DNA from: Tenacibaculum sp. 190130A14a
GTDB taxonomy: Bacteria; Bacteroidota; Bacteroidia; Flavobacteriales; Flavobacteriaceae
NCBI RefSeq assembly: GCF_964048965.1
Contig: NZ_OZ040189.1
Location: 62,001 to 126,000 of the forward strand
Direction: 5' to 3'
Length of the DNA: 64,000 bases
The notes below the pieces were generated by a model. It made no database searches, was not told the origin of the DNA, and worked only from the letters and a program-made list of their open reading frames with translations. This document shows, piece by piece, positions 22,358 to 25,233 of this stretch (positions within the stretch are counted from its first letter, which is position 1; each line of letters opens with the position of its first letter). Both the position numbers and the translations under genes were made by a program.

Positions 22358-23875
22358 TTATGATAATGTTGTTATTGCATTGTTTATTCGATTTATCGTG
22401 GCTTGTTTGCCAATCATAGCCATAATATCAAATAGGTGAGGGCCTTTTAAAGCTCCTACAAGACTTAAACGAAGTGGTTGCATTACTTTACCAAATCCTA
22501 TTTCTTTTGCTGTAATCCACTCTTTTACCTTAGTTTCAGTATTTTCTGAACTAAAATCTTCAATACCTTCAATTACAGTTACTAATTCTTTCATTAAATC
22601 TGGTGTTCCTTCTTTCCATTGCTTTTTACTAGCTTTTGGATCGTATTCAGAAGGATTTACAAAGAAAAAGTTAGATAGGTCCCAAAAATCAGCTACAAAC
22701 GTTGCTCTTTCTTTTACTAAACCTACTACTTTTTCTACATATGTACTGTCAGTTTCAATAGTATGATCAGCTAATATAGCTAAGTATAAATCTGCCAATT
22801 CCTTGTCAGATTTCTTCTGTAAATATTGTTGATTAAACCATTGTGTTTTTTCAGGACTAAACTTAGCTCCAGATTTACTAACTCTTTGTAAATCAAAACT
22901 TTGTATCAATTCTTCTAAACTAAATAGCTCTTGCTCTGTACCTGGATTCCAACCTAATAAAGACAACATATTTACAAATGCCTCGGCAAAATACCCGTCT
23001 TCTTTATATCCACGTGAAACATCTCCTGAAGTTTCGTTAGTATATTCTAAAGGAAATACCGGAAATCCTAATTTATCTCCATCACGCTTACTCAATTTCC
23101 CTTTTCCTACTGGCTTTAAGATTAATGGTAAATGCGCAAATTTAGGTGCTGTCCAATCAAACGCTCTGTATAACAACACGTGTAATGCCAATGACGGTAA
23201 CCATTCCTCTCCACGAATTACGTGAGAAATTTCCATTAAATGATCATCTACAATGTTCGCTAAATGATAGGTTGGCATACCATCTGACTTAAATAAAACC
23301 TTATCATCCAATAAGTTAGTGTCAATTTTTATTTCTCCACGAATTTCATCTTGTAATACCAAAACTTCATCTTTTGGAGATTTAAAACGTACTACAAATT
23401 TCTCACCTGCAGCGATTTTCGCTGTCACTTCTTCAGAAGATAAGGATAATGAGTTTTGTAATTTCTCGCGATTATGCCAATTATAAATAAACGTCTTTCC
23501 TTTTTCTTCATGGTCATTTCTATGTGCAGTTAACTCCTCTGCTGTATCAAATGCATAATACGCCCATCCTTTAGCTATTAATTCATCGGCATATTTTTTA
23601 TATAATTCTTTTCGTTCTGACTGACGATAAGGACCAAACTTTTCATTTCTTCCTGGACCTTCATCAAAAGGTATTTGACACCAATCTAACGAATCAATAA
23701 TATACTGTTCTGCATTGGCTACGTAACGTGTTTGATCAGTATCTTCAATACGTAATACAAAAGTTCCGTTATGTTTTTTAGCAAATAAATAATTAAACAA
23801 GGCAGTTCTAACACCACCCATGTGTAAAGGTCCTGTTGGACTAGGAGCAAAGCGTACTCTTACGTTTTCAGTCAT
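22358..23875 (-). CDS. gltX: Glutamate--tRNA ligase
   Basis: 505 residues, a normal length for bacterial GluRS. The class I signature appears as FAPSPTGPLHMGGVRTAL (HIGH variant HMGG, residues 18-21) and GKLSKRDGD (KMSKS variant, about 260). The C-terminal anticodon-binding region is intact. It charges tRNA-Glu in the cytoplasm and may supply the only Glu-tRNA synthetase. A -7 element lies just upstream at 23899-23906, and the stop is next to a shared terminator. Confidence 0.96.
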   Translation of the reverse strand: MTENVRVRFAPSPTGPLHMGGVRTALFNYLFAKKHNGTFVLRIEDTDQTRYVANAEQYIIDSLDWCQIPFDEGPGRNEKFGPYRQSERKELYKKYADELIAKGWAYYAFDTAEELTAHRNDHEEKGKTFIYNWHNREKLQNSLSLSSEEVTAKIAAGEKFVVRFKSPKDEVLVLQDEIRGEIKIDTNLLDDKVLFKSDGMPTYHLANIVDDHLMEISHVIRGEEWLPSLALHVLLYRAFDWTAPKFAHLPLILKPVGKGKLSKRDGDKLGFPVFPLEYTNETSGDVSRGYKEDGYFAEAFVNMLSLLGWNPGTEQELFSLEELIQSFDLQRVSKSGAKFSPEKTQWFNQQYLQKKSDKELADLYLAILADHTIETDSTYVEKVVGLVKERATFVADFWDLSNFFFVNPSEYDPKASKKQWKEGTPDLMKELVTVIEGIEDFSSENTETKVKEWITAKEIGFGKVMQPLRLSLVGALKGPHLFDIMAMIGKQATINRINNAITTLS

Positions 23876-24120: not shown

Positions 24121-24146
24121 AAAAAAAGCGAGTTTAACTCGCTTTA
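24121..24146 (-). terminator. Terminator of the double-glycine peptide gene
   Basis: Stem AAAGCGAGT (24125-24133), loop TTA, stem ACTCGCTTT (24137-24145). Read on the minus strand it is followed by a T7 run and starts seven bases after the peptide's stop codon, as expected for a dedicated short transcript. Confidence 0.8.
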
Positions 24147-24151
24147 AAATT

Positions 24152-24304
24152 TTACATGTATTGGCAATAACCATTTAGGCAGAAAGAGTCCCAAGGAGGA
24201 CAATCCTTTGCAGTAAAGCATCTAATATGCCATCCGCCACCATTAATGTTCTTTTGCTCATCCTTGTTTAGAGTAGATCCTAAACTTGAAATGTTTTTTA
24301 ACAT
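24152..24304 (-). CDS. Double-glycine-leader, four-cysteine peptide (bacteriocin/RiPP-like precursor)
   Basis: A 50-codon gene read directly from the minus strand, ATG at 24302-24304 and TAA at 24152-24154. Residues 1-23 form a leader with hydrophobic positions (LKNISSLG) and a charged stretch KDEQKNINGG, the classical double-glycine processing site (22-23). The predicted 27-residue core begins GWHIRCF and has cysteines at 29, 35, 42 and 47 plus two Trp and three Pro/Gly turns, suiting two disulfides or thioether rings. Leaders of this kind are cut by peptidase-domain (C39) ABC exporters and are known from Bacteroidota as bacteriocin-type or GG-C natural-product precursors. No exporter or modifying enzyme is in the window, so it is an orphan here. 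A terminator follows directly. Confidence 0.75.
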   Translation of the reverse strand: MLKNISSLGSTLNKDEQKNINGGGWHIRCFTAKDCPPWDSFCLNGYCQYM

Positions 24305-24380
24305 GATATAAAAATTTTAAGATTAGTTAGTGATTGCAATATATACCATACTTAAAATTTCCTTTTAAAAAACACCGTAA

Positions 24381-24407
24381 AAAAAGTAAGGATTTCCCTT
24401 ACTTTTT
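24381..24407 (-). terminator. Terminator of the outer-membrane protein gene at 24406-25233
   Basis: Perfect 11-bp stem AAAAAGTAAGG / CCTTACTTTTT with loop ATTTC, overlapping the stop codon region. On the minus strand the stem ends in a T run. Confidence 0.78.
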
Positions 24408-25233
24408 AGAATTTATGGTATAAACCAAAGCTAATAGCTGGTTTTTTTGGAACATTTCTTCCAGAAAAAGCCCCTCCAAATCCAAGGTTTGCACCAAATT
24501 TATCGTTAAATTCTCCGATTAACTTTAAACCAAAAGCAGCATAACTTTGATCATTTACATACAATCCTGTTGCAATATTTTGTATTGGTTGTATTAAATC
24601 CCCATTTTTTAATGACATTACTCCGTCTAAAAACCCAGCAATCCATAACCAATCGATAGCTTTATATCCTACTTCACCACCTAGTTTATAGTTGCTACTA
24701 TAATCGTTTGTTCTAATATCAAATCCTGTAAATGCCTGTACATACCAATTATCAAAACCTCTTCCTGCAATAACCAAAGGTGTAAAACTCCAAGCATCAT
24801 AACCAGAACGTAAACCTGAAGCAGCTTCATAACTACTGGTATTTGCTTCTACCGTTAATTGCCCTGATAACAACCATTTCTTGTTAATAAAGTTGTGCTT
24901 TATTCCTAATTGAATGTTTCCAAGGGTTGTTTTAGACTCTTCTGTAATTATTGGTGTTGTAGCTACAGCATCTCCTGTTTGAATAAGTTTTAAAGGAATA
25001 TTTCCAATTAAAGTAGTTTTATCAGATAATCCATATTCTGCATACAATTGTAAGGTATTGTCTGTAATTTCTCTTTGCGTAGCATAATCAGGATTTCCGT
25101 ATAACTGATCGTAATTAGAAATTGTTGTAAAAGATAATTGAACATATCCCTCTCCTTTTTTCTTAGTCCAAGGACTTTGAGCTAATACAGAAAACGATAC
25201 AAATAGTGCGGTAAAAATGAATAGTTTTTTCAT
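24406..25233 (-). CDS. Outer-membrane beta-barrel protein, MetA/phenol-pathway-like transporter fold
   Basis: 275 residues with a signal peptide (MKKLFIFTALFVSFSVLAQ) followed by SPWTKKKGEGYVQLSFTTIS, a start I associate with a family of 12-stranded transporter-like barrels named after phenol-degradation proteins. Strand pairs such as LQLYAEYGLSDKTTLIGNIPL, NIQLGIKHNFINKKWLLSGQL and PAISFGLYHKF with a C-terminal Phe (a barrel-insertion signal) support the outer-membrane assignment. The transported compound is unknown. It is expressed from its own terminated unit upstream of the GG-peptide gene. Confidence 0.7.
   Translation of the reverse strand: MKKLFIFTALFVSFSVLAQSPWTKKKGEGYVQLSFTTISNYDQLYGNPDYATQREITDNTLQLYAEYGLSDKTTLIGNIPLKLIQTGDAVATTPIITEESKTTLGNIQLGIKHNFINKKWLLSGQLTVEANTSSYEAASGLRSGYDAWSFTPLVIAGRGFDNWYVQAFTGFDIRTNDYSSNYKLGGEVGYKAIDWLWIAGFLDGVMSLKNGDLIQPIQNIATGLYVNDQSYAAFGLKLIGEFNDKFGANLGFGGAFSGRNVPKKPAISFGLYHKF

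Follow-up and report, generated by a model that had tools for sequence, protein, structure and literature searches.

A conserved double-glycine-leader peptide gene beside gltX in Tenacibaculum, and its putative place in a dispersed repertoire of exported cysteine-rich peptides

The window analysed here is a stretch of 64,000 nucleotides of Tenacibaculum sp. 190130A14a, positions 62001-126000 of its contig (NZ_OZ040189.1; genome of 3.94 Mb), and our subject is a short precursor gene of 50 codons and a TAA stop on its minus strand at 24152..24304. Translation, leader alignment and comparison with relatives divide the product into a double-glycine leader of 23 residues, MLKNISSLGSTLNKDEQKNINGG (24236..24304, minus strand), and a core of 27 residues, GWHIRCFTAKDCPPWDSFCLNGYCQYM (24155..24235, minus strand), after which the stop follows. 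The leader ends in KNINGG, carries the pattern L-x3-L-x4-Q-x2-I-x-GG ahead of the core, and belongs to a subclass starting with M[LI] that is typical of dispersed genes. The core has the spacing C-x5-C-x6-C-x4-C, with cysteines at positions 29, 35, 42 and 47 of the peptide and tryptophans at 25 and 38, and two disulfides are predicted. This arrangement is that of a first-pass annotation, whose 50-residue open reading frame (ORF), leader end, core length and cysteine and tryptophan positions were all reproduced by translation, and whose view of a double-glycine-leader, four-cysteine peptide is borne out by relatives. Its "Tyr-rich C-terminus" was generous, as there are two tyrosines among the last five residues.

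The gene sits between two others on the same strand. Downstream lies a gltX-like glutamate--tRNA ligase gene (22358..23875, minus strand; name inferred from the sequence), which serves as locus marker, and upstream a gene for a 275-aa protein with no assigned function (24406..25233, minus strand), the neighbour on that side in the conserved locus; both lie outside the system discussed here. Folding places an intrinsic terminator hairpin of the peptide gene at 24125..24145 (minus strand). It begins at the seventh base past the TAA, as first annotated, and the 56-nt stretch that holds it reaches -11.6 kcal/mol (z = -3.0; 0 of 200 shuffles equally low). Upstream, an exact copy of a 27-bp motif, TANGGNNNNNCCTTACTTNNNTTANGG (24375..24401, minus strand), was recognized by comparison of upstream regions and a genome scan, and is a candidate operator. 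It stands directly past the stop of the 275-aa gene, whose transcript it may additionally end, and 70 nt from the peptide ATG. Alignment of upstream regions suggests a candidate -7 promoter element, TATATTGC (24336..24343, minus strand), a weak match to TAnnTTTG, a Bacteroidota consensus. A sigma-70 scan stayed at chance level, and neither Rfam nor plasmid records gave a match. No ORF of at least 60 aa lies between the peptide gene and its two neighbours, which argues against a classical bacteriocin-immunity pair at this gene.

A search of 5.8 billion proteins returned three relatives (E 6e-21 to 3e-18, identities of 73-80%), of which two carry the name of Tenacibaculum hypothetical proteins, and the window peptide matches the profile of its leader family at E 2e-22. 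Conserved copies in related strains, a check named in the first-pass annotation, do exist: the same gltX gene is adjoined by family peptides in six other genomes, four of which keep a core with CPPWDSFC. In some relatives the locus contains several peptides that differ from one another, with six tblastn matches in one relative (L054). Pairwise comparison of five gltX-locus cores gave nonsynonymous divergence (pN) of 0.04-0.16 and synonymous divergence (pS) of 0.38-1.09, rough values from 27 codons, and the five leaders gave 0.05-0.25 and 0.14-0.58, equally rough with 23 codons. In one of the four CPPWDSFC copies (G027, L018:1498-1650) the conserved peptide is not in frame with the ATG, and this copy may be dead. 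Since the core is conserved at the gltX locus in four related genomes under purifying selection, the window ORF is, on sequence grounds, a real gene.

The window peptide has many relatives in its own genome. Used singly as query, it found 14 places at E<=1e-3, itself included, and a profile built from 24 relatives gave 35 matches. Of these, 34 were located: 26 at export clusters and eight as dispersed single genes, the window gene among the latter. All 26 cluster leaders start with MK and all eight dispersed leaders with ML or MI (Fisher p 6e-8). Over the fetched DNA, 475 distinct precursors with 470 distinct cores were collected; they were selected via the leader pattern, and the loci had been picked for peptides, C39 domains, VKOR or the motif. 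Among the 397 leaders of 23 residues, the commonest residue at L8, G9, L12, Q17 and G22 occurs in 375-397, and 394 have I or V at position 20. The 475 precursors display 264 different cysteine spacings, the 5-6-4 of the window peptide recurring in nine, and have two (10 precursors), four (202), five (20), six (212), seven (3), eight (27) or ten (1) cysteines. The number is thus even in 452 of 475, and none has zero, one or three. As a parity control, 443 of 582 other small ORFs with at least two cysteines were also even, a proportion inflated by the two-cysteine class and by missed true peptides; the argument therefore rests on the absence of three-cysteine cores (0 of 475 precursors versus 98 of 1755 control ORFs).

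The exporter would have to be encoded elsewhere, as the first-pass annotation had supposed. No C39 domain was found within the 64-kb window at E<=0.01, and the eight matches in the genome at that threshold all lie at 3.14-3.17 and 3.70 Mb, the nearest being about 0.3 Mb from the peptide gene if the contig is circular and more than 3 Mb otherwise. Four are strong (E 1e-30 to 3e-39) and fall in frames of the length of a peptidase-containing ATP-binding cassette transporter (PCAT), which retains, judged by eye, the Asp-Cys-Gly (DCG) and His motifs. The other four are weak and N-terminal in frames of 533-541 aa that are also the four VKOR matches of the genome. The one fusion that was scanned has the order C39-like-VKOR-thioredoxin (VKOR 48.6 bits, Thioredoxin_4 32.3 bits), and in the PDB a profile of six fusion proteins matched 4nv6, a VKORC1/thioredoxin protein, as well as DsbA-like proteins. 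The alignment of the six holds no invariant cysteine before residue 195, so the C39-like domain lacks a conserved catalytic cysteine. In the export clusters, PCAT, HlyD (HlyD_3) and VKOR-fusion genes alternate with arrays of MK-type peptides, and the fourth PCAT sits in a separate radical-SAM cluster with a different leader.

Other observations concern the surroundings of these clusters. Two LytTR response regulators flank export clusters, and two tandem TPR-CHAT (caspase-like) proteins adjoin the first VKOR/PCAT cluster (L044:1370-7443). At three loci (L044, L045 and L052) PCAT and flanking ORFs start with identical residues in the ORF listing, which suggests recent duplication or gene conversion. 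A radical-SAM protein, a PCAT and a 74-aa double-glycine precursor with a different leader stand together at L045:14713-18698 (contig 3.163-3.167 Mb).

Peptides and fusion go together across the genus. The peptide profile matches 28 of 97 Tenacibaculum genomes, and VKOR exceeds its cut-off in 28 as well; 26 genomes have both, two peptides only (G012, which is 67% complete, and G017), two VKOR only (G070 and G087) and 67 neither (Fisher p 5e-19; this and the other Fisher values ignore the relatedness of the genomes, being computed without a species tree). The association of peptides with C39 (E<=1e-3) is looser, with 27 genomes having both, one peptides only, 17 C39 only and 52 neither. Among the 30 genomes closest by gltX identity, own included, 20 carriers are interleaved with 10 non-carriers. 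The single window peptide matched 10 of 59 genomes (own included), namely 10 of 36 within the genus and 0 of 23 outside. When named genomes were scanned with the fusion protein and the best 80 of 91 matches were kept, 79 loci resulted, in Tenacibaculum and in further Bacteroidota such as Aquimarina, Lacinutrix, Bizionia, Polaribacter, Dokdonia and Psychroserpens, and 56 of these loci have at least one leader-pattern peptide within the fetched DNA.

The motif TANGGNNNNNCCTTACTTNNNTTANGG links the dispersed peptide genes, in whose upstream regions it was found, to the oxidation machinery. With up to two mismatches it occurs 12 times in the whole genome, seven times exactly (reversed control, 0). 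Five of the exact sites stand ahead of dispersed peptides, the window peptide among them, and the remaining two ahead of a VKOR fusion and of a 58-aa ORF with AHGG. Of two one-mismatch sites, one precedes a sixth dispersed peptide and the other no recognized peptide or fusion, as is the case for all three two-mismatch sites. It is absent before two of the eight dispersed peptides and three of the four VKOR fusions. Across the genus, with at most one mismatch, 17 of 97 genomes together have 114 sites, and 16 of these 17 carry peptides; the reversed control gave three sites in two genomes. In the fetched DNA, 69 of 112 distinct sites have a peptide (58) or a VKOR fusion (11, two with a TTG start) downstream, and 43 have neither. 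A palindromic site enters the counts once per strand. Of the 58, 53 precede a leader-pattern peptide, whose ATG is 58-71 nt away in 52 cases, and five a leader-like peptide (two with NGKG instead of NGG). Sequences resembling TAnnTTTG are common in the interval that separates motif and ATG, at -29 to -22. The near-fixed distance to the ATG led us to reject the motif as purely a terminator of the upstream gene. Terminators or repeats may account for some of the 43 sites with neither kind of gene downstream. Two genomes, G104 and G112, have unusually many sites (27 and 21), many of them not ahead of peptide genes; the motif may in addition be multiplying as a repeat or have a role at other genes. 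In the genome under study, a 93-aa precursor-like ORF ending in NGVCGAGC precedes a gene that has a CxxxCxxC motif of radical-SAM-like type (L227:1679-2936). This locus is divergent from a motif site at 3609874, which was rejected as serving the radical-SAM precursor because its strand faces the 58-aa ORF with AHGG.

A 227-aa gene near the motif and VKOR could encode the corresponding regulator. Its product has a sub-threshold likeness to a receiver domain (17.3 bits, cut-off 30.2) and to an MctR-type response regulator (42.7 bits, cut-off 300). Among the 79 VKOR loci, 14 have motif and 227-aa gene, one the motif only, one the gene only and 59 neither, four being not assessable; the gene is thus present at 14 of the 15 motif-bearing loci, whereas a LytTR gene lies near VKOR in one of the 15, and LytTR was rejected as first choice for the protein that reads the motif. 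Counted by eye, the 227-aa gene is present in 14 of the 17 genomes of the genus that have the motif and in 15 of the 80 that lack it. Given this presence in motif-free genomes and a second, more distant copy class, the link between regulator and motif is not exclusive. The NarL/MctR-like protein is a putative regulator and our candidate for the motif. The sole peptide-negative genome with a motif site (G011, contig C49) has a homologue of it about 4 kb away.

Taken together, we favour, with a probability of about 0.6, a secreted, two-disulfide, knottin-like peptide used in antagonism, one of a large repertoire sharing one leader and exported and oxidized in trans. This is because leader and cysteines are conserved, the genome has 35 profile matches and PCAT, HlyD_3 and VKOR with Thioredoxin_4, peptides and VKOR co-occur, cysteine numbers are mostly even and never three, and the motif precedes both kinds of gene. 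Neither the set of about 35 members nor the upstream motif common to dispersed peptide and export/oxidation genes had been noticed in the first-pass annotation. The NarL-like regulator encoded beside an export cluster would activate many dispersed peptide genes and a VKOR-fusion gene through the 27-bp motif. The leader would be bound by the C39-type PCAT and by the C39-like domain of the fusion without catalytic cysteine; the PCAT, by analogy with its family, would cleave after Gly22-Gly23 and export the core together with HlyD, and, once across the inner membrane, the core would have its four cysteines oxidized by the VKOR-thioredoxin part. The folded 27-residue core could then act extracellularly on competitors or on nearby eukaryotes. 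Some family members could possibly have an immunity or accessory protein, a candidate being an 82-aa membrane ORF (FIPLAEL; L050:6491-6739) downstream of a dispersed peptide gene (L050:7067-7216), with look-alikes in the DNA of four other genomes (G028, G003, G002 and G112; E 1e-9 to 1e-3, with several alignments limited to 22-41 residues).

A bolder and doubtful version of this proposal is a venom-like system, evolved mainly against eukaryotes, in which each genome would have tens of disulfide-rich, hypervariable cores served by one conserved leader and one export-oxidation machine, many of the cores being encoded by scattered single genes under one operator, with a C39 domain devoid of its catalytic cysteine passing precursors to VKOR-thioredoxin and with the window peptide as a conserved member. 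A rival reading is an inhibitor of eukaryotic proteins, such as a protease or channel blocker, aimed at hosts, grazers or algae and not at bacteria, which we consider unlikely. Weak sequence or fold look-alikes include squash trypsin inhibitors, omega-atracotoxin, nodule cysteine-rich (NCR) peptides and Dickkopf, no immunity gene was found beside the window peptide, and several carriers are named after animal hosts. However, the resemblance of the profile of relatives to knottins and NCR peptides is weak, with unrelated proteins among the matches, and small cysteine-rich peptides converge easily. For the model of a six-cysteine paralogue, Foldseek ranked a spider-toxin knottin first at E 1.2, with non-knottins among the rest; the profile of this paralogue met only Dumpy and Dickkopf in the PDB (E 0.44-0.45), and Pfam Nodulin_late scores the window peptide at 17.1 bits, below its gathering cut-off of 30.4. 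The first-pass annotation could match the cysteine spacing to no named class, and no curated Pfam or NCBIfam family reaches its cut-off with the window peptide; in view of the weak likeness to knottins and NCR peptides, the spacing is not entirely without a match. Moreover, the window core can form two disulfides at most, as opposed to the six cysteines and three threaded disulfides of an inhibitor cystine knot. The odds of a eukaryote-directed role are also lowered by the look-alikes of the 82-aa membrane ORF, a recurring small ORF that would suit bacteriocin immunity.

Signalling comes next, with a core sensed as a pheromone by histidine kinases near the clusters and reporting density or export capacity to kin. 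Two clusters are adjoined by TPR/histidine-kinase or histidine-kinase genes with LytTR response regulators, and one core is kept across species at the gltX locus; but about 35 leader-family members here and 264 spacings among 475 precursors far exceed the receptors seen, and with LytTR scarce at motif-bearing loci, as counted above, such a role appears quite improbable. An enzyme-modified ribosomally synthesized and post-translationally modified peptide (RiPP), whether a lanthipeptide or a radical-SAM product formed in trans, seems more improbable still. The genome does have the radical-SAM, PCAT and 74-aa precursor cluster and a second radical-SAM locus, and a survey reports a cluster family of class I lanthipeptides that is specific to Tenacibaculum (PMC10734526). 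Nevertheless, the radical-SAM-linked precursors carry other leaders, and clusters with the window-type leader hold VKOR-thioredoxin, PCAT and HlyD, with mostly even cysteine counts. No LanC-like gene was found in the genome at E<=1e-3 by a search that was positive in one of 14 control genomes; Lant_dehydr_N gave no match either, but was likewise silent in all 14 controls. The thioethers that the first-pass annotation had offered as an option beside disulfides find no support here, given the VKOR-thioredoxin fusion in the export clusters and the lack of a LanC-like match. A chance ORF between two genes, finally, has next to no standing: it is just 50 codons long and reaches no curated family, yet it has a conserved locus, purifying selection, its own terminator, a profile match at E 2e-22 and the upstream motif.

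If the antagonism repertoire is as proposed, one Gram-negative bacterium would make tens of disulfide-stabilized mini-proteins with one leader and one machine, and a gene anywhere in the genome could join the system by bearing leader and operator. This would open to experiment the handling of highly diverse cores by a PCAT, delivery to disulfide formation by a C39-like domain, and the targets of the cores. Leader, even cysteine number and motif also provide a search rule for secreted peptides that lack annotation and are easily overlooked by gene callers.

Several known systems share parts of this arrangement. In class II microcins such as microcin V, Gram-negative peptides with double-glycine leaders are exported by a PCAT with its HlyD partner and accompanied by cognate immunity genes; leader type and proposed export route are the same here, whereas no candidate immunity gene of 60 aa or more lies beside the window gene. 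Conotoxin-type repertoires join a conserved leader to hypervariable disulfide-rich cores, and differ in kingdom, export route and ancestry, so that the likeness is one of analogy only. Knottins, squash inhibitors and plant NCR peptides (Pfam Nodulin_late, EB) have a comparable C-x5-C ... C-x4-C type pattern and predicted C-terminal beta hairpin. This likeness is likely convergence, because the window peptide is bacterial, has a double-glycine leader and two predicted disulfides, and stays below the curated cut-offs. The Bacteroidota double-glycine-type leader of NCBIfam NF047798 (leader_Chryseo, bacteriocin-like protein) aligns its last 12 residues with those of the window leader, at 13.7 bits against a cut-off of 23.5 and with the window core outside the aligned part. 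Bacteroidetocins are Bacteroidota peptides with a double-glycine leader, four cysteines, likely disulfides, a double-glycine-peptidase ABC exporter and a thiol oxidoreductase, and have a 15-aa leader, a 42-aa core and one peptide per four-gene region (PMC6671954). The window system resembles them in its leader, four cysteines, PCAT and dedicated thiol oxidoreductase (VKOR with Thioredoxin_4 in the export clusters). Unlike them, the window peptide has 23 + 27 aa and is encoded by a dispersed gene that is not beside the PCAT and oxidoreductase genes; the system is set further apart by about 35 leader-family members in the genome, by an oxidase of VKOR-thioredoxin type that carries a C39-like domain, and by a common upstream motif. 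RiPP cluster families in Tenacibaculum, one of them class I lanthipeptide, are reported in a Flavobacteriaceae survey, the part of which considered here mentions no dispersed repertoire of cysteine-rich double-glycine peptides (PMC10734526). Among the matches listed by a literature search, which left most subscription papers uncovered, none dealt with such a Tenacibaculum repertoire or with a C39-VKOR-thioredoxin fusion. The PCAT, the thiol oxidoreductase and the four-cysteine peptide are thus known in kind, and what is new is the hypervariable dispersed repertoire, the C39-like-VKOR fusion and the shared motif.
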